Of a DNA stretch of 64,000 nt, positions 4,733 through 64,000 are shown piece after piece (the first letter of the stretch is position 1; the number at the start of each line of letters is the position of its first letter). Source of the stretch: a virus. A program made the translations under genes and the position numbers. The stretch is from IMG/VR virus record IMGVR_UViG_3300028024_000077, positions 1 to 64,000 of that record; one strand, 5' to 3'. Below the pieces are notes generated by a model. It worked only from the letters and a program-made list of their open reading frames with translations. It had not been told where the DNA came from and did not search any database.

Positions 4733-4745
4733 GGAAAAGAAAGAT

Positions 4746-4761
4746 AAGTAAGTGATTACTG
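4746..4761. promoter_or_regulatory. 16-bp palindrome site (one mismatch)
   Basis: AAGTAA-GTGA-TTACTG differs from the consensus only in its last base. It lies 60 bp before the CobS-like gene. Confidence 0.7.
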
Positions 4762-4820
4762 TTGCGCTTCCTAATTCGCTGCGCTAAAACGGTATCTGTC
4801 GAGAGAAAACGGAGGTCACT

Positions 4821-6011
4821 ATGAACGACAAGATCACTTGCCAGATCTGCGGCGCGCAAATTCATGCTGTCGTCGCCCATCTGCGCGAGGCGCATCCCGG
4901 CGTATCGATCGAGGATTATAAGTCCTCTTACCCGGATGCGCCGCTGCTTTCCAGGCTTGCCGAGGAGAAGCTCGCCAAGGCTCGTGCTGAAAAGCTCGCA
5001 GCCGCCGGCGGCGCTGAAAGTGTCACCGAGATGAAGACCGGCGCCGCCGTGGTCACTTCGCTCGCTGAGAGGCGCGGCTACATGCAGCAGGCGCTGCATG
5101 AGGTCTTCGAATTTGGCGCGGTCGATGCTGCCATGTCGTCGATCCATAAAAAGCCGATCATGATCAATGTCCTCACGGATCAGAACGGCTACGAGGATCT
5201 CGTCCCGGAAGTGGACGAAAACCACGTCTTCGACATTGCCTTGGTCAAGACGACCCTCATGGGGCTCGAACTCAATGTCCCAACCTACCTCTGGGGCCAC
5301 GCCGGCACTGGCAAGACTTCAACCCTGCGCCAGATTTGCGCCAGGACAAAGCGCCCCTTCCTGCGCGTTCAGCATACCCTGAACACGGAAGAGAGCCACA
5401 TTGTCGGTCAGTGGACGGCGAAGGGTGGCTCAACCTCGTTCGAGTTGGGGCCGCTCGCTATCGCAATGAAGAGCGGCCTGGTCTACTGCGCCGATGAATA
5501 CGACATGGCGATGCCGGCGGTGCTGGCCGTCTATCAGCCGGTGCTTGAGGGTCAGCCGCTGGTCATCAAAGAGGCGGATCATGACAGCCGCATCGTCCGG
5601 CCGCATCCGAACTTCCGCTTTGTTGCAACCGGCAACACCAACGGAACGGGTGACGAAACCGGCCTCTATCAAGGCACGATGATCCAGAACGCCGCGAACT
5701 ATGAGCGCTTTGGCGTCGTCGAAGAGGTCAGGTATATGCCCGAGAAGCAGGAAGTCTCGGTCATCATGCAGCAGGCGAAGATCAAGTCGGCCGAGGCTCA
5801 GAAGCTGGTCAAGTTCGCTAACGACTGCCGGCAGGCTTATAGCTCCGGCAAGATCGGCCTGCCGATCAGCCCCCGAGCGCTGATCAATGCCGCCAAGATG
5901 GGCATCCGTCGCGGCGACTTTAAGGTCGGCATCCAGCTCTCTTACGCTAATCGCCTGACCCGCGTTGACAAGGCGACTGTCGAAGGGCTCGCGCAGCGCA
6001 TTTTTGGCTAA
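4821..6011 (+). CDS. cobS-like: CobS-like AAA+ ATPase with N-terminal zinc finger
   Basis: A 396-aa MoxR/CobS-type AAA+ ATPase. Residues 1-50 form a zinc-finger-like segment (CQICG, then H-x4-H) reminiscent of Ros/MucR and of CobS N-termini. Walker A is GHAGTGKTS (about 158-166), Walker B is VYCADEYDMA (about 220-229), and sensor region RFVATGNTNGTGDE follows. With the VWA protein upstream it forms the usual MoxR-VWA chaperone pair. GGAGG ribosome site before ATG. CobN, the chelatase subunit, is absent from the window, so a remodelling role on another substrate is equally possible. Confidence 0.85.
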   Translation: MNDKITCQICGAQIHAVVAHLREAHPGVSIEDYKSSYPDAPLLSRLAEEKLAKARAEKLAAAGGAESVTEMKTGAAVVTSLAERRGYMQQALHEVFEFGAVDAAMSSIHKKPIMINVLTDQNGYEDLVPEVDENHVFDIALVKTTLMGLELNVPTYLWGHAGTGKTSTLRQICARTKRPFLRVQHTLNTEESHIVGQWTAKGGSTSFELGPLAIAMKSGLVYCADEYDMAMPAVLAVYQPVLEGQPLVIKEADHDSRIVRPHPNFRFVATGNTNGTGDETGLYQGTMIQNAANYERFGVVEEVRYMPEKQEVSVIMQQAKIKSAEAQKLVKFANDCRQAYSSGKIGLPISPRALINAAKMGIRRGDFKVGIQLSYANRLTRVDKATVEGLAQRIFG

Positions 6012-7259: not shown

Positions 7260-10200
7260 GTGCATTAAACTTCGCGCTCGGCGCGCGGACACACTTCTCG
7301 CTGGGCGAGTCCTTGCTGGCGCCGAAAGATGTGGTTAAGGAAGCGAAGAAGCGCGGCTACACCGCCGCTGCGCTCGCCGACACCATGACGGTCTCGTCTA
7401 TGATCGACTTCTCGAATGCCTGCAAAAAAGAGGGCATCAAGCCGATCGTGGGCGTGCGGCTGCGGATTGTCGATGACCCGACGGAGCGCAAGCCCAAGCG
7501 CGGCTCCGGCGTGAAGCGCAAAGACAACCGCCCCTGGTTCCCCAAGCTCTTCGCCAAGTCGCCGAAGGGTGTCGAGCGCATCATGCGCCTGCTCTCGCTC
7601 GCCAACAGCGCCGATCGCTTTTACGAGGTCGCGCGCCTTGGCTTTGACGATCTGCTGGCGGAACTGGACGGTAATGATCTCGTATTGCTTACGGGAGACT
7701 TCTACAGCGTCTTCCATCTGTCAGAGCATCGCGACAAGCTGCAAGCAATTGCGAGCCGTCTAGCGCCGTCTAATACGCTTGTAGAGCTGCTTCCAATCGA
7801 CACGCCGTTGTTCGATACGATCAATAAGCACGCGATTGGCGCATGCGTCGATCTGAGATTGGAGCCCATCATCACATTTCCAGCCCTCTATGAGAGCGCC
7901 GAGCATGCGACGACCCTGGACGTATTGAACGCGATCAGCCGGAATGTGGAGATCAGCGAGCCGTGGCACAACGTCTTGCCCTATCGCGGCTATGAGATCC
8001 CCGACCAGGCGTCTGCCATCGAGCGGGTGAATAAGTCGCGCCTCAACCTCAAGAAGCGCGGGCTGGAAGAAAACAAGCCGATCTGGCTGAAGGCGCTGCA
8101 AAACACTGGCAGCTTTGCCGCGCGGTTCGACTATGTCTGGTCGAAGATGCCGGTCTCGCTGCCGAAGCTCGCCGTGGACGAATACGCGACGCTCAAGGCG
8201 GAATGCGTCAAGGGCTGGAAGGAGCGCTTCGCAAAGCCGATTTTCGGGCATCAGCCGGACGATGCCACGCTGAAGGCAGAATATGTGCCGAGGCTGCAAT
8301 ACGAGCTTGGCGTCCTGAAAAAGATGGGCTTCGAGGGTTACTTCCTGCTCGTGCAGGATCTTGTCCGGTGGAGCAAGTCGCAGGGCATTCTGGTCGGGCC
8401 CGGTCGCGGCTCCGTCGGCGGCTCGCTGATCGCCTATTTGATGGGCATCACGGACGTTGACCCTATCCGCTTCAACCTGCTGTTCGAGCGCTTCATCAAT
8501 CCCGACCGCCTCGATTTGCCCGACGCCGACTTGGACTTCATGTCCGCTCGCCGGCACGAGGTCATCAAATACCTGGTCGAGAAATACGGCGCCGACAAGG
8601 TCGCAGGTATCTCGAATTACGGCACGCTGGCGTCAGCATCGGCGCTGCGCGACGTGGCGCGCGTCTACGGCGAGGATCTGAAGGAAATGACCTTCACGAA
8701 GCTCGTCCCCAAGGAACACGGCAAGTCGGTTTCCCTGGAGGAAGCCGCCAAAGCGATCCCCGATATCGACAAATACCGCCTGGCGAAGCCGGATATCTGG
8801 AAGCACGCCACCAAGCTGGAAGGGGCAATGCGCTCCTACGGCCGGCATGCCGCTGGCATCGTCGTGGGCGGTGTCCCGCTGATCGAGCGCGCCGTGGTCG
8901 AAAGCCGGCAGGGTGAGCCGACCGTCAATTGGGACAAGCGCGTCGTCGAAGACATGGGGCTGGTTAAAATGGACATTCTGGGTCTATCGACCCTGGACGT
9001 TCTCGACCACTGCATCAAGCATATCTGGAAGCGGCACACGAAGCACATCGACCTGCTATCCTTGCCGATCGATGACGAGCGCGTCCTGAATGCCTTCGGG
9101 AAGGGCGACACCATCGGCATCTTCCAGTTCGAAAGCGGCGGCATGAAAAAGCTGCTGAAGGATCTTGCTTTCGGCGGCCCGCTGACCTTCGAAGACCTCT
9201 CGGCCGCCACGGCGCTCTATCGACCGGGTCCGATGGACTCCGGCCTGCTTGACGAATACGTGGCGATTAAGCAAGGCGTCGGTGAGCCCAGCTATGAGCA
9301 TCCCAACATGAAGCCGGCCCTGGAGGCGACTTACGGCGTCATGGTCTATCAGGAGCAAGTCATGCAGCTTGCCCGAGACCTCGCCGGCATGACCTTTACC
9401 GAGTCCGACCATCTCCGCAAAGCGATGGGCAAGAAGGACAAGGATAAGATGGCCGAGCAGCGCGGCAAATGGGTTGACGGCTGCCAGAGCCATTCCGGCA
9501 TGTCCGAGAAATCAGCCCAGGAGCTATTCGACAAGATCGAGCTGTTCGCCGGCTACGCCTTCAACCGCAGCCACTCGGTCGAATATTCGCTGATCTCCTA
9601 CATCGCTATGTGGCTGAAGGTCTATTACCCGATCGAATTCTATGCCGCGTCGATGACGATCATGGATGAGGACAAAATACCTGGGATCTTGGCTGACGCG
9701 AAGTCCCGAGGCATCGTGGTCATGCCGCCGGATATCAACGAGTCCTCTGGCATCTTTGAGATCCTGAACGACAAGACGCTCCTGATCCCATTCAACCGGC
9801 TCAAGGGCATTTCGGACAATACGACGGGCGCCATCCTGTTCGCGCGCAGTGAGGGCGGCAAGTTCAAGGACAAAGCCGACTTCATCACGCGGGTCGAAAA
9901 GCGCCGCTGCAACATCCGTCACCAAGAAATTCTCGATCGCATTGGTGCCTTTGCCCGCATCGAGCCCGGCCAGCTACCCTCGACCCACGAAAGCCGTCTC
10001 AAGGATCAGATCGAGCTACTGCCAGGTTTGACCGTGCAGGCGGTCAAAGTCAGCCGCGACATGGTGACGAGCCCCTTCGCCAAGGTCAGGCTCAATGCGC
10101 TGGTCGAGGAATGGCGGAGCTGCAAGAACTGCTTGCTGGCCGGCGGGTGTCACCCGAAGCCCTTCCTCGGCAAAGAGCCCAAGTTCATGGTCGTCACCGA

Positions 10201-10633
10201 CGGCCCGAGCTGGACGGAAGAAGAAAATGACCGCATTGCAATGGGCAGCTCGTTTAGCTACGTGCATGAAGCGATGCTAGTTGCCGAGCTGGCCAAAAAG
10301 GATGCCTATTTCACGACCCTGATCAAGTCACCCAAGCCGGAAGGGGAGAAGTTCTTCCCGAACGAGGTTCTCAAGGCTTGCCCGTCTTATCTGGATCGCG
10401 AGATCGAGATCCTGAAACCGCCACTGATTGTGGCCCTGGGTAGCAATGCTGCCCGGCATTTCGTTCCCGAGTTGAAGGGCGGCGTCGCTGAACACAATGG
10501 TATGCTGCACTACAGCCGCGAACTCGATGCCACGATCATCATTGGAATTTCGCCTGGCATGATCGCGTTCGACGGTGGTAAGCAAAGGCTGTTGAACGAC
10601 GTTTTCATGAAGGCAAAGGAACTGTTGGAGTGA
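7256..10633 (+). CDS. dnaE-like: DNA polymerase III alpha-type polymerase fused to a UDG-like domain
   Basis: A 1125-aa C-family replicative polymerase. An N-terminal PHP-like domain (1-about 260) lacks most metal-binding His/Asp residues (RTHFSLGE and LADTMTV where HxHxxxS and DHG are usual). The palm has GPGRGSVGGS and the aspartate motif LPDADLDF (about 420-427), then YGRHAAGIVV and YRPGPMDSG. From about residue 945 a uracil-DNA-glycosylase family-4-like domain replaces the usual OB/tau-binding tail: CKNC, TDGPSW in place of GEAPG, and PPLIVALGSNAARHF. One expected iron-sulfur cysteine appears replaced by serine (IKSPKP). It probably replicates the phage genome. The UDG-like part may sense uracil rather than excise it. 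Confidence 0.9.
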   Translation: MSALNFALGARTHFSLGESLLAPKDVVKEAKKRGYTAAALADTMTVSSMIDFSNACKKEGIKPIVGVRLRIVDDPTERKPKRGSGVKRKDNRPWFPKLFAKSPKGVERIMRLLSLANSADRFYEVARLGFDDLLAELDGNDLVLLTGDFYSVFHLSEHRDKLQAIASRLAPSNTLVELLPIDTPLFDTINKHAIGACVDLRLEPIITFPALYESAEHATTLDVLNAISRNVEISEPWHNVLPYRGYEIPDQASAIERVNKSRLNLKKRGLEENKPIWLKALQNTGSFAARFDYVWSKMPVSLPKLAVDEYATLKAECVKGWKERFAKPIFGHQPDDATLKAEYVPRLQYELGVLKKMGFEGYFLLVQDLVRWSKSQGILVGPGRGSVGGSLIAYLMGITDVDPIRFNLLFERFINPDRLDLPDADLDFMSARRHEVIKYLVEKYGADKVAGISNYGTLASASALRDVARVYGEDLKEMTFTKLVPKEHGKSVSLEEAAKAIPDIDKYRLAKPDIWKHATKLEGAMRSYGRHAAGIVVGGVPLIERAVVESRQGEPTVNWDKRVVEDMGLVKMDILGLSTLDVLDHCIKHIWKRHTKHIDLLSLPIDDERVLNAFGKGDTIGIFQFESGGMKKLLKDLAFGGPLTFEDLSAATALYRPGPMDSGLLDEYVAIKQGVGEPSYEHPNMKPALEATYGVMVYQEQVMQLARDLAGMTFTESDHLRKAMGKKDKDKMAEQRGKWVDGCQSHSGMSEKSAQELFDKIELFAGYAFNRSHSVEYSLISYIAMWLKVYYPIEFYAASMTIMDEDKIPGILADAKSRGIVVMPPDINESSGIFEILNDKTLLIPFNRLKGISDNTTGAILFARSEGGKFKDKADFITRVEKRRCNIRHQEILDRIGAFARIEPGQLPSTHESRLKDQIELLPGLTVQAVKVSRDMVTSPFAKVRLNALVEEWRSCKNCLLAGGCHPKPFLGKEPKFMVVTDGPSWTEEENDRIAMGSSFSYVHEAMLVAELAKKDAYFTTLIKSPKPEGEKFFPNEVLKACPSYLDREIEILKPPLIVALGSNAARHFVPELKGGVAEHNGMLHYSRELDATIIIGISPGMIAFDGGKQRLLNDVFMKAKELLE

Positions 10634-10836
10634 GTTGGGAGAAACTGTGGGTGTTGATCGGTGGCATTGCTGTCATCGTGATGGGTGGGGGTTACTTCTG
10701 GTTCTCGGTCTACCCGGAGGTATATCCGACGAACATCGCCAAGGCGAACAGGCTGGCGGAATGCGAGGCTACCAGTCCAAACTTCAATCGCTGGAGCGAG
10801 AAGTCGCGCGTGTTCTGCTACATTACCACGCCATAA
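10630..10836 (+). CDS. Small membrane-anchored protein
   Basis: A 68-aa protein starting at GTG, overlapping the polymerase stop (GTGA). One N-terminal transmembrane segment (about residues 6-26, VLIGGIAVIVMGGGYFWF) is followed by a short polar tail with two cysteines. Not recognised. Translational coupling to the polymerase argues it is real. Confidence 0.6.
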   Translation: MSWEKLWVLIGGIAVIVMGGGYFWFSVYPEVYPTNIAKANRLAECEATSPNFNRWSEKSRVFCYITTP

Positions 10837-10887
10837 GCCACCAGAAGATCGGCACTAACCTGCCGATTTTCTTTTTCCCAAGAAGAT

Positions 10888-10903
10888 AAGTCACTATTTA
10901 CTT
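10888..10903. promoter_or_regulatory. 16-bp palindrome site (perfect)
   Basis: AAGTCA-CTAT-TTACTT, followed by TATAGT about 15 bp downstream. It lies 48 bp before the next gene. Confidence 0.8.
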
Positions 10904-10950
10904 CATTTCCCAGACTATAGTTAGTACAGTCGATCTCACGGAGCAGTTAG

Positions 10951-11433
10951 ATGGAGTTGAAAACTTTCTTTACGCCAGAGGAGCTGAAAGCTGACCTAGC
11001 GTTTTCGGATGCGGATCTGCACACGGCCATGATGAAACAGGCGCCGTTGTTTGCTCACTACGCGTCCATCGCAGCCCGCGCTCAGAAGCAGGCTGACGAC
11101 ATGAAGATGATCCTCGAAATTACCGAGGGCAAAGTGGACAAGGATCTTCGCAATCAGGCGGCAGCCGCCGGCGAGAAGATCACCGAGGCGTCACTGTCCA
11201 AGGCGCTTGTCCGCAGTTCGAAATACGTCGAGGCGCTCCGGCGCTACAACGACGCAAGGATGATCGCAGACCTGGCGCGCAACGCCTTGGAAGCGTTCAA
11301 GCAACGCCGCGACATGCTGGTTCAGATCGGCGTGACGCAGCGTGAAGAGATGAAGGGCGACCTTCTGATCAAGGCGCGCGAGCGGACTCTCGATGAGAAG
11401 AAGGCGGGCGTTTTGGGAAAAGTTAGCGCGTGA
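10951..11433 (+). CDS. Hypothetical helical protein of the recombination module
   Basis: A 160-aa, almost entirely helical, charged protein with coiled-coil character (ARAQKQADDMKMILEITEG; ALVRSSKYVEALRRYNDAR). It contains no catalytic motif. It sits directly before the SSB gene in its own palindrome-controlled unit. The size and helical content would fit a recombination-mediator or loading protein, but that is only an inference from position. Confidence 0.55.
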   Translation: MELKTFFTPEELKADLAFSDADLHTAMMKQAPLFAHYASIAARAQKQADDMKMILEITEGKVDKDLRNQAAAAGEKITEASLSKALVRSSKYVEALRRYNDARMIADLARNALEAFKQRRDMLVQIGVTQREEMKGDLLIKARERTLDEKKAGVLGKVSA

Positions 11434-11451
11434 CAATTTCCTCTTAGAAAT

Positions 11452-11467
11452 AAGTCACCGCTTACTA
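11452..11467. promoter_or_regulatory. 16-bp palindrome site (one mismatch)
   Basis: AAGTCA-CCGC-TTACTA, directly followed by TATTATAG, a plausible -10 element for the SSB gene. Confidence 0.75.
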
Positions 11468-11543
11468 TATTATAGTTGTGAAAGTAAGTCGCGAATGAGC
11501 GGCGAGGTTCACAGTCATTCAAGCGATAAAAGGAAAGCAAAAG

Positions 11544-12527
11544 ATGGCAAGCACTGCCGAATTACTCGAAAAGATCAAGCAGAAGAAGCAGGCGATCCAG
11601 CAGGCTTCGGGCCGCCGGGTCAAGACGCTGAAGCCCACCCCCGGTAAGAGCCGTTGGCGCATTCTTCCGTCCTGGCGCGGTGATGGGCAGCAGTTCTGGC
11701 ACGATTTCGGCCAGCACTTCATCAAGAATACCGCTGGCGAATTGCAGGCGGTTTACGTCTGCCTCAGCAAGACGTATGGCGATGACCGCCCCTGCGAGGT
11801 CTGCAACAGCCTGTCTTCGGCGATCAAGGCTTGTGATGACGATACCGTCATCGAGAAGCTGAAGGAAGCGTCCTCGAAGGGCCGCATCCTGCTCAACGCC
11901 CTTCACCTCGATGGTGAAGATCCCAAGACGCCGGGTATCCTGGAACTGACCCCGACCACGTTCGAGAAGTTCCTCGACCTGTTCGCCGAATACGAAGATC
12001 TGATGGATCTCGACGCCGGCCGCGACATCATCATCACGCGCACTGGCTCGGGCCTCAACACCGAATACAGCATCATGGTTGGTGCGAAGACGGTGAAGGT
12101 CGATCGCGCAATTCTGCCCAAGCTTCACAACTTGGACGAATACGTCGCCCAGGAATACGAGGAGGGCAAGAAGAAGGCCCTCGCGGCGATCGGCAATGTA
12201 TCCGGTCGTCTCTCGGCAGCCGGCGGCGCTGGTCTGCTCACTGGCCCGAAGGGTGGCTCCCGGCCGACCCCGAAGGACGAAGACCTGGATGACGATATCC
12301 CTTTTGACGAGTCCTCGCCGATCGGCGGCGAGGTGATCGAAGGGAAGGCAACGGAAGTGAAGGAGCCGGCGCCGACCCCGCCCAAGGCGGCTTCTGAGAC
12401 CACTCCCGCGCCGAGCGCCCCGAAGAAACCCGATCCGAAGCTGGCAGTTGAAGAAGTGCCCGCTGCGGATATCGCAGGGTCTTACTCGGACGCTGAGATC
12501 GACGCCTTGCTCGGCGATCTCGACTAA
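11544..12527 (+). CDS. Single-stranded DNA-binding protein, T4 gp32-like
   Basis: A 327-aa ssDNA-binding protein. The basic N-terminus (KKQAIQQASGRRVKTLK) is followed by an OB-fold region with a gp32-type zinc site (PCEVCNS plus nearby Cys, residues about 72-95). The C-terminal third is a disordered Pro/Ala/Lys/Glu linker ending in acidic segments (DEDLDDDIPFDE and DAEIDALLGDLD). Such acidic tails recruit replication partners in gp32 and SSB. It protects ssDNA and coordinates polymerase, RecA and exonuclease. AAGG ribosome site; own palindrome site upstream. Confidence 0.85.
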   Translation: MASTAELLEKIKQKKQAIQQASGRRVKTLKPTPGKSRWRILPSWRGDGQQFWHDFGQHFIKNTAGELQAVYVCLSKTYGDDRPCEVCNSLSSAIKACDDDTVIEKLKEASSKGRILLNALHLDGEDPKTPGILELTPTTFEKFLDLFAEYEDLMDLDAGRDIIITRTGSGLNTEYSIMVGAKTVKVDRAILPKLHNLDEYVAQEYEEGKKKALAAIGNVSGRLSAAGGAGLLTGPKGGSRPTPKDEDLDDDIPFDESSPIGGEVIEGKATEVKEPAPTPPKAASETTPAPSAPKKPDPKLAVEEVPAADIAGSYSDAEIDALLGDLD

Positions 12528-12535
12528 ACGGAGCG

Positions 12536-12562
12536 GACGCGGGTCTCCCCAACCCGCGTCCC
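12536..12562 (+). terminator. Hairpin after the SSB gene
   Basis: GGACGCGGGT and ACCCGCGTCC form a perfect 10-bp stem with a 7-base loop, followed by CCTCGCTCC rather than a T-run. It may attenuate transcription or protect the mRNA 3' end. Confidence 0.55.
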
Positions 12563-12581
12563 TCGCTCCTCAGAGAGCCCC

Positions 12582-13496
12582 ATGAAGCATTATCTCATCA
12601 TTGACGGCAACAGCATTGGCTTTGCTGCCCACAACACGACCGTCCTCACGGTCGCCGGCAAGCAAGTCCAGGCGATCTTTGGCTTTCTCAGGACGGTCAG
12701 GAAGATGGTCGAGACCTATGGGTCCGGCGGTGTTCTGATCCTCTGGGACGGCAAGTCATGGCGCAAGGAAGCCTACTCGTTTTACAAGGCTGACCGAGAC
12801 AAAGACCCGAAGATCGCTGCGGCGCGAGCGCATTACAAAACGCAGCGGCCGTCAATCGCGCGAGCCTGCAAGCTACTCGGTCTCCCCCAGTTGTTCGCTC
12901 CCAACCTGGAAGCGGATGATCTCGCCGGGATGCTTGTGCCGCGCGCCGTTGCAAAGGGCGCCCGCGTAACGATGGCAACCGGCGATCAGGACTGGCTTCA
13001 GCTTGTCCAGCCCGGCGTCGTCTGGATGGACTTCGTTCGCGAGAAGATCGTCACCACCAAGAATTTCCAGGAGTTCACCGGCTACGTGAATGCCGCCGCC
13101 TTTTTGCAGGGTAAGGCACTTCGCGGTGACAGCTCCGACAAAATTCCGGGTGTTGGCGGCATCGGCGAGAAGGGCGCGGCGGAGATGCTGGAGAAGTGGG
13201 GCTCTGTTGAGGGGTTTCTTGAAGCCTTCAATGGCGGCAAGATCGAGAAGCCGGGCAAAAAGCTGGTGACGTTCGCCACGAACGCTGCCGGCGGCGTCGA
13301 TAACTTCCACCGCAACATGGAGATCATGGATCTCCGCAGTCCCGCCATCCCAAAGCCGACCAAGTTGCACAAGACCGCCAAGCCGCTCGATGAGGAAGGC
13401 TTCACGGAATTCTGCGCTGAGCTGGCTTTCCATTCCATCCTTCGTGAACTCGACAAGTGGCTGACGCCATTTAAGAAAGGAATTTCCCATGCGTGA
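12582..13496 (+). CDS. 5'-3' exonuclease / flap endonuclease
   Basis: A 304-aa FEN-family nuclease. Metal-binding acidic motifs are visible: IIDGNSI (about residue 5), NLEADDLAG (about 108-116) and ATGDQDWLQL (about 130-139). The helix-hairpin-helix GDSSDKIPGVGGIGEKGA (about 183-200) binds DNA. The family removes RNA primers and 5' flaps at the replication fork. It lies between SSB and RecA, consistent with the replisome. The stop overlaps the next start by 8 bases. Confidence 0.9.
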   Translation: MKHYLIIDGNSIGFAAHNTTVLTVAGKQVQAIFGFLRTVRKMVETYGSGGVLILWDGKSWRKEAYSFYKADRDKDPKIAAARAHYKTQRPSIARACKLLGLPQLFAPNLEADDLAGMLVPRAVAKGARVTMATGDQDWLQLVQPGVVWMDFVREKIVTTKNFQEFTGYVNAAAFLQGKALRGDSSDKIPGVGGIGEKGAAEMLEKWGSVEGFLEAFNGGKIEKPGKKLVTFATNAAGGVDNFHRNMEIMDLRSPAIPKPTKLHKTAKPLDEEGFTEFCAELAFHSILRELDKWLTPFKKGISHA

Positions 13497-30805: not shown

Positions 30806-30905
30806 GGCAGCAATTTGCCCGAGTGGGGAAGCGATAACCAACCCGCTTCCCCGCTTGCGCGCTGCGACAATCACACAATCGACAGAACAACGGAGGGCCG
30901 GGGCA

Positions 30906-32330
30906 ATGTCCACGGAGATCGCGCTACGCGCATCGATCAGGCAGCTCGAAGGGTATCGCAAGATGGCGATCACTCAGTTCGCTGAGGCGACGGCGGCCAT
31001 GAATACGGCGCTGAAGACGGCGGCGCTGGCGGCCGGCGGCAAAGGCATCTATGTAGATGACGACTTCGCCAAGTGTTTTTTCGGCCGTGGCTACGCCAAG
31101 CATGATTTCGCCACGACGGCCCGGATGCAGCTCGATCGCCAGATTTGGGATCATCTGATCGAGGCCCACGGCCTTGAGCGGATCATGGACAAGAAGGCGC
31201 GCGATGAATTCCGCGAGCAGCTCCGCAACGACCCGCCGGAGGCAACGGCCGAGAACGCCTACGCCACGATCAGCACGTTCCTGGGCCAGGCCGATCTGAT
31301 TTTCAAGCGCGGCATCGCCAACGCTTTCAGCCAGCTCGATCGCCGCTTCCGCACGCATGACGGCTTCAAGATTGGCAGCAAGATTATTCTGTCGAATGCC
31401 TTCACTGATTATGGGAGCTGGAACTACCACCGGCGCCAGGACGAGACCCTGCGCGACGTTGAGCGGGCATTCTACATCCTGGATGGAAAGCCCGTGCCGG
31501 ATAGGGTCGGCAACCCCAAGCCTGATAACGGCGGACCTGCCATTGCCAAGAGCTTTCTAACGACGGTCGATGAGGCTCGCCCGAGAGGGTTTGGTATGGT
31601 CGCGTTCCAGGCTGAGGACGATATGTTCCGCCTCAGGGCGTTCAAGAACGGCAACGCCCATCTATTCTTCAAGCGCGACGACCTGGTCACCAAGGTTAAC
31701 AAGCAGCTCGCCGACTATTATGGCGACGTGCTACCGGCGGGCAGCGATTGCGCTGAGGTGAAGCCTCAATTCAACCGGACGCCGGCCAAGAACTATGGCT
31801 TCTTCCCGACGCCCGAGGCCGTGGTCAGTCACCTAATTGAGCGCGCCAACATCTATCCGAAGCCGCTCAAGATCTTGGAGCCGGAAGCGGGCACGGGGCG
31901 CATTGCCTCGGCAGTGGCGGACGAAAACGACGTAACCTGTGTTGAGATCCAGCGTCACATGGCTGACGAATTGGCGGCCAGCGGCAAATACCGGCGTGTG
32001 ATCCACAATGACTTTTTCGACGTCACGCCCGAATACCTGGGGCTCTTCGACCGCATCATCATGAACCCGCCATTCGACGGCCAGCGTGACATCGACCACG
32101 TCACGCACGCCGTCAGCTTCCTTGAAGACGAGGGGCGCCTGGTCGCGGTTATGGCTGCCGGCGTCGAGTTCCGAGAGAACGCGAAGGCGGTCAAGTTCCG
32201 CCAGCTCGTCGAGGCGCGCAAGGGTGCTTTCTTTGACCTGCCGCCGGCCTCGTTCGCGGAGAGCGGCACGATGGTCAACACGGTGATTTGCGTCATCCCC
32301 GGCATTAAGGCCGGCCCAGCGAGGTGGTGA
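30906..32330 (+). CDS. DUF4942-type DNA methyltransferase
   Basis: A 474-aa protein. Residues 1-about 290 match the DUF4942 type (FGSWN-like YGSWNYHRRQDETLRDVERA). The C-terminal SAM-dependent methyltransferase has motif I LEPEAGTGRIA (about 320-330) and catalytic motif IV MNPPFDGQRD (about 382), the NPPF of N6-adenine or N4-cytosine enzymes. There is no restriction partner nearby, so it probably protects phage DNA or tunes expression. I chose ATG 30906 after GGAGGGCCGGGGCA over an upstream extension. Coupled with small genes downstream. Confidence 0.85.
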   Translation: MSTEIALRASIRQLEGYRKMAITQFAEATAAMNTALKTAALAAGGKGIYVDDDFAKCFFGRGYAKHDFATTARMQLDRQIWDHLIEAHGLERIMDKKARDEFREQLRNDPPEATAENAYATISTFLGQADLIFKRGIANAFSQLDRRFRTHDGFKIGSKIILSNAFTDYGSWNYHRRQDETLRDVERAFYILDGKPVPDRVGNPKPDNGGPAIAKSFLTTVDEARPRGFGMVAFQAEDDMFRLRAFKNGNAHLFFKRDDLVTKVNKQLADYYGDVLPAGSDCAEVKPQFNRTPAKNYGFFPTPEAVVSHLIERANIYPKPLKILEPEAGTGRIASAVADENDVTCVEIQRHMADELAASGKYRRVIHNDFFDVTPEYLGLFDRIIMNPPFDGQRDIDHVTHAVSFLEDEGRLVAVMAAGVEFRENAKAVKFRQLVEARKGAFFDLPPASFAESGTMVNTVICVIPGIKAGPARW

Positions 32331-58103: not shown

Positions 58104-58119
58104 AAGTCACCATTTACTT
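58104..58119. promoter_or_regulatory. 16-bp palindrome site (perfect)
   Basis: AAGTCA-CCAT-TTACTT, 38 bp upstream of the minus-strand helicase gene. Confidence 0.8.
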
Positions 58120-58144: not shown

Positions 58145-58160
58145 AAGTCAGCGCTTACTT
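58145..58160. promoter_or_regulatory. 16-bp palindrome site (perfect)
   Basis: AAGTCA-GCGC-TTACTT, 30 bp upstream of the plus-strand ParB-like gene. With 58104 it gives one site per divergent promoter. Confidence 0.8.
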
Positions 58161-58189: not shown

Positions 58190-58834
58190 ATGAAAAGCGC
58201 AGAAATTGACCCGCGACGTTTGAAGCCAAATCGCTGGAACACGAACGTCGTCAGCCCAGACAACGAGAAGAAGCTGGACGAAAGCCTCCGGCGCCTCGGC
58301 GTCTTCAAGCCCGTCCTCGTGCGGACACTACCCAATGATGATCTGGAGATCATCGGCGGCGCGCACCGCGTCGAAAGCGCGATCCGCATCGGGCTCAAAT
58401 CCATCCCAGTCGTCAACCTCGGCGAGATCGACGACCACAAGGCCAAGGAGATCGGCCTGGTCGATAATGGCCGCTACGGCGCCGATGACGTGGTTAGCCT
58501 GGCCGAGCTGATGAGCGAGCTGGGCAGTGCCGCCGACCTCGCCAGCTTCCTGCCCTATACCGACGCCGAGATGACAGCGATCTTTTCCTCGACCGACATC
58601 GACCTCGACATGCTCGATGGCAGCGATGATGACGAGGCCCCGCTGGCGCCCATTGAGACCGCGCTGAAGACCCACACCATCATGCGCTTCAAAGTCCCGC
58701 TGGGCGACGCCGAGCGCCTCCAGGAAGCCATTGAGAGCGTCATGAAACGCCAGGGCTTCACCGACAGCGACGATCTGACCAATGCCGGCGACGCGCTCGT
58801 CTGGCTCTTTAATGAATACCTGAAAGGCGAATGA
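58190..58834 (+). CDS. ParB-like nuclease-domain protein 1
   Basis: A 214-aa protein with an N-terminal ParB/Srx-type domain: PRRLKPNRWNTNVVSPDNEK and IGGAHRVESAIRIGLKSIPV (GxHR motif). An acidic linker and a C-terminal domain follow. ParB-like domains bind CTP or cut DNA in different families. ATG 58190 was chosen; an upstream TTG inside the palindrome site is possible. First gene of the ParB-ABC-GNAT operon before terminase. Confidence 0.75.
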   Translation: MKSAEIDPRRLKPNRWNTNVVSPDNEKKLDESLRRLGVFKPVLVRTLPNDDLEIIGGAHRVESAIRIGLKSIPVVNLGEIDDHKAKEIGLVDNGRYGADDVVSLAELMSELGSAADLASFLPYTDAEMTAIFSSTDIDLDMLDGSDDDEAPLAPIETALKTHTIMRFKVPLGDAERLQEAIESVMKRQGFTDSDDLTNAGDALVWLFNEYLKGE

Positions 58835-58835
58835 C

Positions 58836-58994
58836 ATGCGCGGCTATCGCGACTGTAAGACCTGCGCTCACCAGCGCACCGCCAAGTGCCTTCCCTGCAC
58901 AAGCGGCCAGAACTTCGAACCCAAGGAGATCGAGGAGCTGGATTTCGAGAACGACACCCTGAATTTCGAGGACTTCGATGGCGACCAAGACTAA
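58836..58994 (+). CDS. Small zinc-ribbon protein (52 aa)
   Basis: One base after the previous stop, the frame MRGYRDCKTCAHQRTAKCLP continues with a second CxxC (CLPC) and an acidic tail. Four Cys in the C-x2-C-x7-C-x2-C arrangement indicate zinc binding. It overlaps the next ParB-like gene by 17 bases. Perhaps an adapter for the neighbouring ParB proteins. Confidence 0.6.
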   Translation: MRGYRDCKTCAHQRTAKCLPCTSGQNFEPKEIEELDFENDTLNFEDFDGDQD

Positions 58995-59679
58995 GAGCGG
59001 CGCACGCGACGTGGTGGAGCTGGCCGGCGAGCTGCGGCCGGACTATCCGCTTGAGAAGCTGATCCCCTACGAGAACAACACCAAGATCCACGCCGAAGAG
59101 CAGGTCGAGCTGTTGGCGAAGCTGATCCTGGAGAATGGCTTCACCGATCCGATCCTGGTCAACAAGAAGGGCGTGATCATCGCCGGCCATGGACGGCGTC
59201 TGGCCATGCTGAAGCTCGGCTACAAGACGATCCCGGCCTTCGTCGCCACCAACTTGACGCCGACACAGGAGCGGGCTCTCCGCATCTCCCACAACAAGGC
59301 CAGCTCGTCCAAATACGACACCGAGAAAATGGCCTTTGAGATCCGAGGCTTGAGCGACGATGGCTACGACATTTCGGGCCTTGGCCTGGAAGGTAAGGAA
59401 ATCGAGTTCATGAGCGGCGATCTCGACGTGATAGACGAGAGCGCCTTTGCCGATGACATCGTCGATGCGGTCGAGCGTCAGAACGAGGAGAGCCAGGAGA
59501 ATATCGACCGCGTCGATGCTGGCGAGATCCCGGTTTGGCGTGCCCTCGGCTTCAAAACGATCGCCAAGCACCGCGAGAAGCTGGTCAACGAGTTCATACG
59601 CCGCATCGAGAACGAGACCGGCAAGCAGGGCGGCGAAGCCTTGGCGCATTTCATCAGCCAGGTCACGGAGACAGTATGA
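58978..59679 (+). CDS. ParB-like nuclease-domain protein 2
   Basis: A 233-aa protein with a second ParB-type domain: PLEKLIPYENNTKIHAEEQV, ILVNKKGVIIAGHGRRLAML (GHGRR motif) and LRISHNKASS. The C-terminal half is acidic then helical. Phage ParB-like domains of this kind often precede DNA methyltransferases or terminases. Coupled to the next gene by ATGA. Confidence 0.75.
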   Translation: MATKTKSGARDVVELAGELRPDYPLEKLIPYENNTKIHAEEQVELLAKLILENGFTDPILVNKKGVIIAGHGRRLAMLKLGYKTIPAFVATNLTPTQERALRISHNKASSSKYDTEKMAFEIRGLSDDGYDISGLGLEGKEIEFMSGDLDVIDESAFADDIVDAVERQNEESQENIDRVDAGEIPVWRALGFKTIAKHREKLVNEFIRRIENETGKQGGEALAHFISQVTETV

Positions 59680-59987
59680 GCGACGAAAAGAAGATCGTCC
59701 GGCTCGTGCCGGTCGCCGAGCGCCTAGAACAAGAGAAGGAAGAGATCGCCGGCGACGACCAGAAGGAGCTGATCGCTTACCTAGGGGAGCTGCTGGAGCG
59801 GGCCCGCGCCGGCGAGTTCGTCGGCATGGTCGCTATTGTGGATACGAAAGACAATGGCTTCTTCAAAATTAGCACCCAATCGATGCTGGATAATGCCAGC
59901 CAGACGATCGGCGAGTTGGAGATTGTGAAGACCCAATTCATCCAAGCGATCAGTGATTTGGCGGTCGAAGAGGGGATTGACCAGTGA
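59676..59987 (+). CDS. Hypothetical protein of the ParB-ABC-GNAT operon
   Basis: A 103-aa acidic helical protein (RLVPVAERLEQEKEEIAGDD) with a small beta unit (EFVGMVAIVDTKDNGFFKIS). Both ends overlap neighbours by ATGA/GTGA. Unknown. Confidence 0.6.
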   Translation: MSDEKKIVRLVPVAERLEQEKEEIAGDDQKELIAYLGELLERARAGEFVGMVAIVDTKDNGFFKISTQSMLDNASQTIGELEIVKTQFIQAISDLAVEEGIDQ

Positions 59988-60625
59988 AATACCTGATCAG
60001 CAAGTCCTTTTCGACCACCGTCGAGCGCTCGCCGCGCGTGATCGAGGTCGCTGAAGCCTATGGCCTGGGTCTCAGCGATAAGGAATTCACCATCTACGAC
60101 AACTTCGAGATCGAGGTGAAGCAAGGCGACGTGGTCTACATCACCGGCCAGAGCGGCTCGGGCAAGTCGCTGCTGCTGCGCGAGCTGGCCGCCCAGATGA
60201 AGGATGACGGCCTGAAGGTGGCCGACATCGAGGGCATCCAGTTCGACGACCGGCCGCTGATCGACCAGGTTGGCAAGAACATGACCGAGGCCAGTAACCT
60301 ACTGAGCCAAGCCGGCGTGAATGACGCCTATTTGCAGATCCGCCGACCCAAGGAGCTGTCCGACGGCCAGCGCTACCGGCTACGCCTGGCCAAGCTGATC
60401 GAAAGCGGCGCCGAGGTGTGGGTCGCGGACGAATTCGGGGCGATCCTGGATCGCAACACCGCCAAGGTGGTCGCCTTCAACATGCAAAAGATGGCGCGCA
60501 AGTTGGGCGCGACCCTGATCGTCGCCACCACTCACACCGACATGGAAGCCGAGCTTGGAGCCGACATCATGATCACCAAGCGCTTCAAAGAGCGGATCGA
60601 CGTAAAGCGGGTAGAGAACGAATGA
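59984..60625 (+). CDS. ABC-type ATPase, soluble, paired with GNAT
   Basis: A 213-aa ABC ATPase. Walker A is TGQSGSGKS (about 55-63), signature LSDGQRYRLRLAKLI (about 125-139) with Asp in place of the first Gly of LSGGQ, Walker B VWVADEFG (about 145-152), and H-loop TTHTD. It has no membrane partner. ABC-ATPase plus GNAT fusions are known (COG2401 type) with unknown function. Here the two halves are adjacent genes (ATGA overlap), so they likely act as one complex. Confidence 0.8.
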   Translation: MKYLISKSFSTTVERSPRVIEVAEAYGLGLSDKEFTIYDNFEIEVKQGDVVYITGQSGSGKSLLLRELAAQMKDDGLKVADIEGIQFDDRPLIDQVGKNMTEASNLLSQAGVNDAYLQIRRPKELSDGQRYRLRLAKLIESGAEVWVADEFGAILDRNTAKVVAFNMQKMARKLGATLIVATTHTDMEAELGADIMITKRFKERIDVKRVENE

Positions 60626-61566
60626 CGCGATTAGAGCGTGCTGCAAGCCCGTCGCACGATTTGCCGTCTCTGACAACGGGTTTAGAGCTGGAGACGGTCG
60701 TAGAGCGTCGGGAGCGTGCTCGGGGCGTCTTCCCGATGCTTTCTGAGATGATCGTCGAGCGCGGGACGGCTGACGACTGGGAATTGCTCCACGAGCTGCA
60801 CTATAAGTCGGAAGGCGGACTGTTTGGGCCGCATTACTGGCGCTGCTCACTCCGGGGCGAGACGATCGGTGTCATGGTCATCTCCATGCCGCGCGGACTC
60901 CTGAAAGACCGCCATAACGTGTTCCCCAAACTCGCACCTGGCGGCGACACGAAGATGACCAACACCTACCGCTATGTTTTCGTGAACAAGAACTTCCGCC
61001 TGGTCTCGCGCCTGGTGGTGGATACGATGTTCCGGGGCATCGGCGTCGCCTACCGGATGCAGAATCTCGCCGCGCGCATGGAGGGCGCCAGGTATATCGA
61101 GATCCAGTCGTCGATGAGCAAATACAACCTCTTCGCCGAGAAGGCCGGCTTCCGGTTTGCTAAGCCCCGACGGGCCAACAAATACGAGCTGGGCCTAGAG
61201 ATGTTCCGCCGGCACTTCCGGTCCTACCCCGGCGATCATCAGGCGATCATGCAGGAGATCAAGGCGCTCGATCCGAAGATCCGCGAAAAGAAGATCGAGG
61301 AGCTGAAGGCGTTCTATTACCAGCACTCCGCCATGGAGCGCACGGGGTCGAACGGCCAGAAGGGGACAGAGCGGGTTGAAGCTCTCTCCGACGCTGCCCT
61401 GATCCGCAACCTGATCCAGATGTGCTTTTCCAGCCCGCTGTACGGCGTCTACACCAATCCCGACCACGGACGCCAGATCCCCGACCGGCTGCCGCTCACG
61501 GCCTTCGACAACCAGCCTGTGAACGCGCCCTTAGACCTGGAGAAGATCAAATGGCCTACGGTCTGA
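60622..61566 (+). CDS. GNAT-family acyltransferase
   Basis: A 314-aa protein. The GNAT core spans about residues 35-205; the acetyl-CoA pyrophosphate loop is FRGIGVAYRM (R-x-x-G-x-A, about 137-146), followed by the motif-B strand YIEIQSSMSKYNLFAEKAGF. The first about 35 residues read oddly (Ser/Leu/Arg-rich) and their DNA resembles the palindromic elements elsewhere (GCCGTCTCTG...AGACGG). The Mu Mom DNA modifier is also a GNAT-fold enzyme, so base modification is a plausible but unproven role. Confidence 0.75.
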   Translation: MTRLERAASPSHDLPSLTTGLELETVVERRERARGVFPMLSEMIVERGTADDWELLHELHYKSEGGLFGPHYWRCSLRGETIGVMVISMPRGLLKDRHNVFPKLAPGGDTKMTNTYRYVFVNKNFRLVSRLVVDTMFRGIGVAYRMQNLAARMEGARYIEIQSSMSKYNLFAEKAGFRFAKPRRANKYELGLEMFRRHFRSYPGDHQAIMQEIKALDPKIREKKIEELKAFYYQHSAMERTGSNGQKGTERVEALSDAALIRNLIQMCFSSPLYGVYTNPDHGRQIPDRLPLTAFDNQPVNAPLDLEKIKWPTV

Positions 61567-61832
61567 CCGAGAAGCAGCGGATGATCCTGGAGACCATTCA
61601 CCGGGGCGGGGAGGGCGCGGGCCAGATCCGCCTGGAGACGCTGCTGAAAAAACTGCCCTACCAGACCTCTAAGGACAGCATTCAGTTCTCGCTCCGGGCG
61701 CTGGATAGGGCCAAGTTCACCCGCAGCACCTATGGGACGTTCGCCGGCCGCCGGCATCGGTTCATTTCACTGACCGAGGACGGCTACCGGGTGATCAAGT
61801 TCCTCAAGCAAGACTGGGGAGTGGAGCTGTAG
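61551..61832 (+). CDS. Winged-helix DNA-binding protein
   Basis: A 93-aa protein with a LexA-like start (LTEKQRMILETIHRGGEG) and a winged-helix pattern (LETLLKKLPYQTSKDSIQFS; LRALDRAKFTRSTYG), and a beta wing. Overlaps the GNAT end by 16 bases. Likely a small transcription factor; target unknown. Confidence 0.65.
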   Translation: MAYGLTEKQRMILETIHRGGEGAGQIRLETLLKKLPYQTSKDSIQFSLRALDRAKFTRSTYGTFAGRRHRFISLTEDGYRVIKFLKQDWGVEL

Positions 61833-61839
61833 AAGCGCG

Positions 61840-62011
61840 CCGTGGGAGTTTTGGGAGCCCATGCCGCGCCCGCCCGAAAGTTTTTTAAAGAAATAAGCTT
61901 CTACTTACTATAATAGGTTTAAAACCAAGCCAAAGAGTTGTTTTTATATATTATAACACTTTAACATAAAACTTTCGGGCGGGCGGATTTGGCAACTACC
62001 AACTCCCACGG
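61840..62011. repeat. Long two-block inverted repeat upstream of terminase
   Basis: CCGTGGGAGTT (61840-61850) and CGCCCGCCCGAAAGTTTT (61867-61884) recur as exact reverse complements at 62001-62011 and 61968-61985. The 83-bp centre is very AT-rich (TTGTTTTTATATATTATAAC) and holds a degenerate palindrome site (61895-61910) followed by TATAAT. No gene is present. Candidate origin, packaging site or control element. Confidence 0.75.
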
Positions 62012-62061: not shown

Positions 62062-62077
62062 AAGTAATCAGTTACTT
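62062..62077. promoter_or_regulatory. 16-bp palindrome site (perfect, symmetric)
   Basis: AAGTAA-TCAG-TTACTT, 107 bp before the terminase small subunit gene. Confidence 0.8.
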
Positions 62078-62183: not shown

Positions 62184-62795
62184 ATGTCCGAGACCAAGAA
62201 CAAGAAGATGACGCCGGCAGAATACGAGCAGGCAAAGCAGCTTCGCGTCACCGGACAGAAGACCATCAAAGACATCGCCGCGCAATTTGGCGTTTCCGAG
62301 CAGGCGCTACGCAAGCGCTTCAGCCGGGATGGTGTCGAGGTGCTGGAAGAGGCGGTGGAAGAGCATGTCGCCGGGGTCACCGACCTGGCCGCCCAAAAGC
62401 TGGCGGAGTCGATTGCCCTTCACCAGAAGCGCGTTCAGGACACCAAGGAGATCCACTATAAGCTGGCCGAACAGTTCACGGCCCTTGTCGCGCGCAAGAC
62501 CAAAACGGCGATCGAAGACAAGATATCCCTAGCCACCCTCATCCCCGAATTCAAGGCGATCAAGCTCGCTCTCGAAATCAGCCAAACGGCCAAACAGATC
62601 CGCTACGACGTGCTGGAGATCAACAACGGCGACGTTGATCCCGAGGATATGCCGGAACTGCCGATTGTGGAGATTACCGACGAAGAAGCTCACGAGATCG
62701 GCCGCAGCAAGGGCCTGAACTTCGAAGAAGACGACGAGTTGGTCGCCGGCGCGGAGTCAGACACTGAAGATGCCGATAGCGACCCCGCCGATTAG
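62184..62795 (+). CDS. Terminase small subunit (putative)
   Basis: A 203-aa protein. N-terminal HTH (AKQLRVTGQKTIKDIAAQFG, VSEQALRKRF; residues 17-48) for DNA recognition, a central helical oligomerisation region (about 60-150) and an acidic C-terminal tail. This is the layout of phage small terminases, which select DNA for packaging. Assignment rests on the fold and on the large subunit directly downstream, overlapping by 26 bases. Confidence 0.75.
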   Translation: MSETKNKKMTPAEYEQAKQLRVTGQKTIKDIAAQFGVSEQALRKRFSRDGVEVLEEAVEEHVAGVTDLAAQKLAESIALHQKRVQDTKEIHYKLAEQFTALVARKTKTAIEDKISLATLIPEFKAIKLALEISQTAKQIRYDVLEINNGDVDPEDMPELPIVEITDEEAHEIGRSKGLNFEEDDELVAGAESDTEDADSDPAD

Positions 62796-64000
62796 TAAGC
62801 CTCGGCCGCGCGCCGCCGCGCTCACCCTTCACCGGGGCCAGGCCGAAGTCTTCCGATCTCAAGCTCGTATCAAAGTCGTCGTCGCCGGCCGCCGCTGGGG
62901 CAAGACCCAGCTCGCCAAGATCGCGATTATAAGGGCAGCTCGCATCCCGAAGCGCCTTATCTGGTATGTCGCGCCAACCTATGGCATGGCCAAGGGCATC
63001 ATGTGGCATGAGCTGCTGGAGAGCATTCCCCGGAAGTGGCTGGCCGGCAAGCCGAACGAGACCGCGCTCTGCATCAAGCTGCGGAACGGGACGCGCATCG
63101 AGCTGAAAGGCGCCGACAAGCCGGACACTTTGCGCGGCGTGGGTCTGCATTATCTGGTTCTCGACGAATTCCAGGACATCAAGGAAGACACTTGGACGAA
63201 GATCCTGCGGCCGACGCTAGCCTCCACCGGCGGCCACGCGCTGATCATCGGCACGCCCAAAGCCTTCAACATGCTCCACAAGCTCTGGGCTAAGGGCCAG
63301 AAGGAATACAATCGTATGTACGGGCGCTGGCATAGCTGGCAGTTCCCGACCATTACCAGCCCCTTCATCCCGAAGAGCGAGATCGAGGAGGCCCGGCGCG
63401 ACATGGACGCCAGGTCTTTCAAGCAGGAGTTTGAGGCCAGCTTCGAGACCATGAGCGGGCGGGTCTATTATGCCTTCGACCGGAAGATCCATGTCGGCAA
63501 ATACCCGCTCAATCCCGACCTGCCGGTGATGGTGGGGCAGGATTTCAACATTGACCCGATGTCGAGCATTCTGCTGCAACGCCAGGACAACGGCGAGCTA
63601 TGGGCGGTGGGCGAGCTTGTGCTGTTCGGCTCGAATGTCGCCGAGGTGTCGGAAAAGCTGGAGCAGCGTCTGTGGCGCATCAATCAGCGCTTCGTCACCA
63701 TCTACCCCGATCCGGCAGGCGCCGGCCGCCAGCATGCCCGAGGCGAAAGCTCGCTCGATATCTTCCGGGAAAAGGGCTTCGTGGACATTCGCTATCGCCG
63801 CAAGGCGCCGGCGATCGCCGACCGCGTCAACTGCGTCAACCGGCTTCTTATGAGTGCCGACGGCTCCATCAAGCTGAAGATCGATGAGAGCTGCCGCTAC
63901 CTGGTCGATAGCTTGGAGCAGACCATCTACAAGCCGGGCACGCCCGAGATCGACAAGACGAATGGCAAGGAGCACTTCACCGACGCTCTCGGCTATCCGA
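62770..64000 (+). CDS. Terminase large subunit (partial, runs off the window)
   Basis: The first 410 codons of the DNA-packaging motor. Walker A is GRRWGKTQLA (residues 40-49), Walker B is YLVLDEFQD (about 127-135), coupling motif IIGTPKAF (about 159). The RNase H-like nuclease begins GQDFNIDPMSS, and the frame ends at DALGYP within the last nuclease motif. ATG 62770 lies inside the end of the small subunit gene. Structural genes should follow beyond the window. Confidence 0.9.
   Translation, partial: MPIATPPISKPRPRAAALTLHRGQAEVFRSQARIKVVVAGRRWGKTQLAKIAIIRAARIPKRLIWYVAPTYGMAKGIMWHELLESIPRKWLAGKPNETALCIKLRNGTRIELKGADKPDTLRGVGLHYLVLDEFQDIKEDTWTKILRPTLASTGGHALIIGTPKAFNMLHKLWAKGQKEYNRMYGRWHSWQFPTITSPFIPKSEIEEARRDMDARSFKQEFEASFETMSGRVYYAFDRKIHVGKYPLNPDLPVMVGQDFNIDPMSSILLQRQDNGELWAVGELVLFGSNVAEVSEKLEQRLWRINQRFVTIYPDPAGAGRQHARGESSLDIFREKGFVDIRYRRKAPAIADRVNCVNRLLMSADGSIKLKIDESCRYLVDSLEQTIYKPGTPEIDKTNGKEHFTDALGYP

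Follow-up and report, generated by a model that had tools for sequence, protein, structure and literature searches.

A ParB-ParB-ABC ATPase-GNAT operon before the terminase genes of SSU5-type phage-plasmids, a candidate DNA-modification system

The 64,000-nucleotide window analysed here, taken from a virus record of 103,480 bases (IMG/VR record IMGVR_UViG_3300028024_000077, positions 1 to 64,000), carries at 58190-61832 an operon encoding two ParB-like proteins, a soluble ABC ATPase and a GNAT-fold acyltransferase. On balance we consider it slightly more probable than otherwise that this operon encodes an ABC-GNAT-type machine for phage DNA modification. An earlier note, made from the letters of the window, had proposed a candidate DNA-modification system here and had pointed to the GNAT-fold enzyme Mom of phage Mu; comparison with relatives now supports the proposal through homology to fused ABC-GNAT proteins, an exchange with Mom, ParB genes beside Mom and Mom as the top fold match, leaving it unproven and without the support of sequence homology to Mom. 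The operon comprises the following genes.

58190..58834, + strand: ParB1, a ParB/Srx-fold protein of 214 residues with a GGAHR box (phrog_723 E 7.5e-60, PF02195 E 1.9e-10)
58836..58994, + strand: open reading frame (ORF) of 52 residues with a zinc-ribbon-like CxxC-x7-CxxC motif (motif only)
58978..59679, + strand: ParB2, a second ParB/Srx-fold protein, of 233 residues with an AGHGRR box (phrog_930 E 1.8e-56)
59676..59987, + strand: small protein of 103 residues (ORF, variable among relatives)
59984..60625, + strand: soluble ABC ATPase of 213 residues with a GTG start (PF00005 E 6.7e-13, phrog_293 E 7.8e-45, phrog_11143 E 9.5e-24)
60622..61566, + strand: GNAT-fold acyltransferase of 314 residues (phrog_886 E 5e-121 and the GNAT fold of its model)
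61551..61832, + strand: winged-helix protein of 93 residues (phrog_900 E 1.2e-12, HTH_12)

Gene content and kinship with fused ABC-GNAT proteins

Direct reading of the window places all seven ORFs on the + strand, each adjacent to the next or sharing a few bases with it, and their order recurs in relatives, so the coupled genes described in the earlier note are real. Its identification of two ParB-like proteins, an ABC ATPase and a winged helix is borne out by the family matches listed above, and that of a GNAT enzyme by phrog_886 and the modelled fold, though no Pfam family matches. The zinc ribbon fares less well: the cysteine motif is present, and the 52-residue ORF has no family match in profile searches, is missing from some relatives and has no counterpart listed at the equivalent position in SSU5. 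Nor did profile searches return a significant family match for the 103-residue small protein.

The ABC protein contains a GQSGSGKS Walker A motif, the LSDGQ signature and an ADEF Walker B motif, and the Walker A, S-D-G-Q, D-E-F Walker B and H-loop histidine positions are near-invariant (88-92 of 92 distinct homologues). Its nearest PDB chains by fold are the nucleotide-binding domains of transporters. No hydrophobic or membrane segment was found in any operon protein (maximum Kyte-Doolittle 1.07), and the name 'ABC transporter' is therefore a misnomer that mirrors the fold only. A transporter role was accordingly rejected, the operon having no membrane-spanning subunit or segment.

Both the ABC and the GNAT protein are related to the two halves of single-chain ABC-GNAT proteins from unrelated phages (COG2401-type, phrog_11143). 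A profile match links the ABC protein to phrog_11143, a family made up of ABC-GNAT fusions, with the E value given above, and when the SSU5-type proteins are compared with an alignment of 49 fused proteins, hhalign assigns 99.2% (E 3e-19) to the ABC and 73% (E 3e-5) to the GNAT half. The latter alignment pairs HELHYKSEG with PHHYLDSGP and FRGIGVAYR with WQGAGIGMK, keeping the HY and RGIG positions in register, and scores 44.3, the best of 40 column shuffles reaching 23.6 and the reversed profile 15.9. The pair is thus related to the fused enzyme; as ABC and GNAT are two separate ORFs here, it is a split relative rather than a strict member of the fused family. The two systems share homologous ABC and GNAT halves, an abutting ParB gene and the predicted chemistry, and differ in that the present genes are separate, are accompanied by two ParBs and a winged helix, lack a formyltransferase and encode a long C-terminal GNAT extension.

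Of the 119 fetched loci of the fused gene, 90 extend far enough upstream to be scored for ParB, and 63 of these have a ParB ORF directly abutting on that side; 80 extend far enough downstream, and in 65 of them a formyltransferase follows. Gordonia phage BiggityBass, for example, has the order ParB, ABC-GNAT, formyltransferase (PF00551) and terminase, followed by RuvC and portal, and in Gordonia-type phages TerL, the large terminase, is found near ParB-ABC-GNAT in 22 of 39 loci. Porphyromonas-type fused loci instead follow tail genes, TerL being detected by the models used in only 6 of 80, a count limited in part by TerL diversity. In Tenacibaculum phage pT24, the phage named for ABC-GNAT in PMC7824862, the published example seems to consist of two ORFs separated by a short gap (locus L109, 5842-7014), perhaps because of an interruption of the gene or an error in the deposited sequence.

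It is the Porphyromonas slot that provides the best evidence for DNA modification. Between phages Bg4 and Kyudai4, the three tail-region proteins closest to this slot share 86-98% identity; the slot comes after them and holds ABC-GNAT and formyltransferase genes in one phage and a PF25680 Mom gene in the other. ParB genes also occur beside Mom: that of Microbacterium phage Appa overlaps the start of the Mom gene (L153, 2469-3621), and in Arthrobacter phage Martha one small gene separates ParB from a downstream Mom-like gene (L154, 693-2061), the frequency of this pairing being known from these two examples only. Both ParBs match phrog_723/620, and phrog_723 is the best match of ParB1. This genomic context suggests, short of proof, that ABC-GNAT systems and Mom do comparable jobs.

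The GNAT protein and the proposed modification of DNA

The GNAT protein shows an HY dyad at residues 60-61, an acyl-CoA loop of the form R138xxG141xA143, an EIQSSMSK motif and a C-terminal extension of about 115 residues. Across 97 homologues the HY dyad, R97-H98, N114, N122, R130, D134, R138 with G141, and EIQSSMSK are near-invariant, with H60-Y61 and R138 each present in 97/97 and G141 in 95/97. Its family, phrog_886, and the RefSeq entries NC_018843, NC_042091 and NC_034248 name the protein 'ABC transporter ATP-binding subunit', a label that is wrong: it lacks Walker motifs and has the GNAT fold, and phrog_886 is a GNAT family.

The structure model is confident (predicted local distance difference test score 87, predicted template modelling score 0.77), and its top match among 350,542 PDB chains is Mu Mom (8bv8, E 3.2e-5, template modelling score 0.47 by target), with generic GNATs close behind. 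TmcA ranks third and NAT10 seventh, the top seven also including dopamine N-acetyltransferase and Naa60, with E values for these four within about fivefold of that of Mom; in a search of viral models a Mom protein ranks third. A search of solved structures with the GNAT sequence profile gave no match. The fold comparison suggests a nucleic-acid GNAT and is not decisive. With Mom (PF25680) the protein shares the GNAT fold and an HY dyad after the first helix, H58-Y59 in 9/9 Moms and H60-Y61 here, the two equated by secondary structure rather than superposition. It differs in that no clear equivalent exists for S124, the active-site serine of Mom, and that no ABC partner was seen at Mom loci. 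The RNA cytidine acetyltransferases TmcA and NAT10 likewise combine a GNAT with an ATPase and act on a nucleobase, differing in the kind of ATPase, in their RNA substrate and in having no ParB.

In the mechanism we propose, the GNAT would transfer an acyl-like group from an acyl-CoA-type donor to a nucleobase of the phage DNA. Access of the GNAT to the DNA would be driven or gated by the soluble ABC ATPase, which would probably act as a dimer, and the two ParB/Srx-fold proteins would act as NTP (nucleoside triphosphate)-dependent DNA-loading or specificity factors. DNA modified in this way would resist host nucleases. The DNA substrate, the donor, the ABC and ParB roles and protection as the benefit are what we infer from the features described above. 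Among ParB-fold proteins, binding of CTP, ATP or GTP occurs, and a fusion of ParB with an acetyltransferase bound GTP (PMC12704722), so an NTP-switch role for ParB is plausible.

Several points weigh against DNA modification. We know of no ABC-GNAT protein for which the chemistry has been demonstrated, and ordinary amine- and protein-acetylating GNATs score nearly like Mom in the PDB fold search. Profile comparison of the GNAT with nine Mom proteins gave hhalign probabilities of 1-2%, and there was no PF25680 match, so membership of the Mom family by sequence was rejected. A search of the 103-kb record for the formyltransferase domain PF00551 gave no match, and the slot in the Porphyromonas phages could be one that takes up accessory genes in general. 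Anti-restriction genes, moreover, tend to come and go, and an invariable core position is unusual for one. In a bolder form of the proposal, which we regard as tentative and rather doubtful, the very widespread SSU5-type phage-plasmids would bear a base modification, so far unrecognised and possibly essential, that a three-component ParB-ParB/ABC-ATPase/GNAT machine makes, with ATP hydrolysis gating acyl transfer to DNA.

Gene order in SSU5-type phage-plasmids and competing explanations

The GNAT gene is present in 30 phage records and 905 plasmid records, and in at least 198 IMG/VR contigs (80 fetched) and 17 fetched GTDB contigs, mostly of about 90-120 kb. SSU5, Cyrano, nickie and Rhizobium phages are among the phage records, which represent the SSU5 phage-plasmid group or relatives isolated as lytic phages. 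Among 399 sampled proteobacterial genomes, the GNAT profile found only an SSU5-type copy and two matches at E ~0.004 that we judged to be noise. The record analysed here has the SSU5-type block, a conserved helicase gene beside ParB-ParB-ABC-GNAT-winged helix-TerS-TerL-portal, the neighbours of the operon in the window being two terminase genes.

62184..62795, + strand: TerS, small terminase-type DNA-binding protein (phrog_867 E 5.7e-29)
62770..63999, + strand: TerL, large terminase, continuing past the window end

Hidden Markov models run over all fetched loci found ParB1-ParB2-ABC-GNAT-winged helix-TerS-TerL on one strand in 82 complete loci. Two single variants were seen, one locus with an additional ParB2-type ORF and another with the ParB labels exchanged. 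The other SSU5-type loci were either cut by contig or record ends or lacked only a TerS call, the TerS model being built from two sequences. As every related locus with enough flank has the same gene order, chance is excluded, and because the order holds down to 32% GNAT identity, the operon is part of the core phage programme rather than a passing accessory gene. SSU5, Cyrano, nickie and RHEph10 (phrog_886/293/723/930) share the genes, their order and the position before TerS-TerL with the present record, and differ from it in their accessory small genes. In loci L030 and L032, at about 9918-12624, two ORFs match the TerL model for one large terminase, a split that could reflect an insertion, an intein, a frameshift or an assembly error.

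This unvarying place directly before TerS-TerL, in every testable SSU5-type locus, raises the idea that the module serves packaging or genome maturation, with ParB1/ParB2 and the ABC protein acting at a packaging site by TerS and the GNAT regulating a packaging protein. It would agree with ParB-ABC-GNAT standing just before terminase in Gordonia-type phages too (the 22 of 39 loci above) and with the inverted repeats and SSU5 map ends in the adjacent gap (see below), and is set back by the Porphyromonas-type ParB/ABC-GNAT modules, which follow tail genes, can be replaced there by Mom and have a detectable TerL in few loci, within the limit stated above. To our knowledge, known tailed phages package without an acyltransferase, and overall we think this explanation unlikely. 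The suggestion in the earlier note that the cluster marks or processes DNA just before packaging was drawn from position alone, and is not supported, in that the fused module often lies away from terminase elsewhere.

Somewhat less probable again is that the GNAT acylates a protein, such as host RNA polymerase in the manner of the phiKMV-like Rac, with ABC and ParB regulating the GNAT. Amines and proteins are the commonest GNAT targets, generic GNATs match the model almost like Mom, and a phage GNAT acting on RNA polymerase has been described (PMC7824862); such a role leaves unexplained the ParB and ABC partners, the Mom exchange and the ParB genes beside Mom. That the module blocks host defence or superinfecting phages in some other way, by nucleotide depletion or ParB nuclease activity and with no DNA mark, appears improbable. 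Nuclease or NTPase activities of ParB/Srx proteins that take part in conflicts have been discussed (PMC10853773) and soluble ABC ATPases are found in defence systems; against this, the operon sits at a fixed core position and probably shares its regulation with phage genes, unlike a moron with its variable placement. We give very little credence to the two ParBs being plasmid partition proteins of the phage-plasmid state. The ParB_N domain, the phage-plasmid nature of the relatives and a ParA gene some kilobases away in Rhizobium relatives speak for it; a PF13614 search of the 103-kb record, which may be incomplete, found no ParA-type ATPase, both ParBs (35.6 and 25.7 bits) fall far under the TIGR00180 cutoff of 58.45, and the operon promoter has a putative phage-wide operator. 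A partition role was rejected on the ParA and cutoff results. Cyrano genes 119-123, moreover, are not in the published list of lysogen-expressed genes, none of them being listed among those whose transcription exceeds prophage background at least 5-fold in E. coli LF82 (PMC9928086), which fits use of the operon in the lytic cycle.

Base modification by ABC-GNAT proteins is not a new idea: Iyer et al. 2013, as relayed in PMC7824862, predicted an uncharacterised acyl modification of a nucleobase by GNAT and ABC ATPase, and this was restated in 2021. Within the literature searched, which left most subscription papers outside, no text on COG2401 was found, and new are the split form, the two ParBs, the absence of a formyltransferase and the fixed place before terminase in SSU5-type phage-plasmids. 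If DNA modification by the operon proved true, hundreds of phage-plasmids in Enterobacterales, Acinetobacter, Pseudomonas and Rhizobiales would carry overlooked, chemically altered DNA, with effects on restriction sensitivity and sequencing signals, and a gated acyl-transfer machine would represent a DNA hypermodification enzyme of a new class. The E. coli K-12 and Salmonella LT2 hosts would offer an easy laboratory entry to the ABC-GNAT enzymes predicted in 2013. The misleading annotation of phrog_886 is in any case corrected to GNAT. Elsewhere in the window, the C-terminal part of a 491-residue protein (30855-32330) matches phage DNA methyltransferases, making it, by sequence, a possible second DNA-modifying enzyme.

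Palindromes, inverted repeats and other features of the window

The window contains 24 sites (e.g. 2433, 10888, 20134, 28888, 30377, 35927 and 40444) of a 16-bp palindrome, AAGTMANNNNTKACTT, when up to one mismatch is allowed; they are mostly intergenic and near gene starts, and a stricter pattern gives 54 strand-wise matches against 1.1 expected from shuffles. Three of the 24 sites flank the operon, as does an inverted repeat.

58104..58119, no strand assigned: 16-bp palindrome AAGTCACCATTTACTT, a putative operator lying where the helicase and ParB1 genes diverge
58145..58160, no strand assigned: second copy, AAGTCAGCGCTTACTT, in the helicase-ParB1 gap
61866..61985, no strand assigned: 18-bp perfect inverted repeat CGCCCGCCCGAAAGTTTT with an 83-base AT-rich loop, in the winged helix-TerS gap (repeat scan)
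62062..62077, no strand assigned: palindrome AAGTAATCAGTTACTT upstream of TerS, the same motif as before ParB1

A related motif, AGTCANNNNTGACT, is found in 89 relatives, with 35 occurrences in the gap between helicase and ParB1 and 37 in that between winged helix and TerS, far above the share of the sequence that these gaps make up. The palindrome is probably the operator of a phage-wide regulator and, given the copies before ParB1 and TerS and the enrichment of AGTCANNNNTGACT in the same gaps of relatives, the operon probably belongs to a phage-wide regulon.

Inverted repeats comparable to that in the winged helix-TerS gap are present in 60 of 104 scanned sequences (L017, L023, L042, L047, L052, L064, L066, L068, L085 and others), with arms of up to 39 bp and an AT-rich loop of median 31 bases. 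They start a few bases past the winged-helix stop codon, and their arms differ in sequence and stay complementary. Mismatches in the arms comprise 19 G-U and 9 A-C pairs, counts that do not separate an RNA hairpin from a DNA dyad, and an Rfam search of the gap gave only two sub-threshold, implausible matches. The linear SSU5 map (NC_018843, positions 1-133 and 103238-103299) starts and ends inside this gap, which may fit a packaging site there or may merely be the annotators' choice.

At the other end of the window, a gene pair encoding a CobT-like protein (phrog_17276) and a CobS/AAA-like protein (phrog_249) lies at 2462-6008, beside the gene for a DNA polymerase of 1125 residues.

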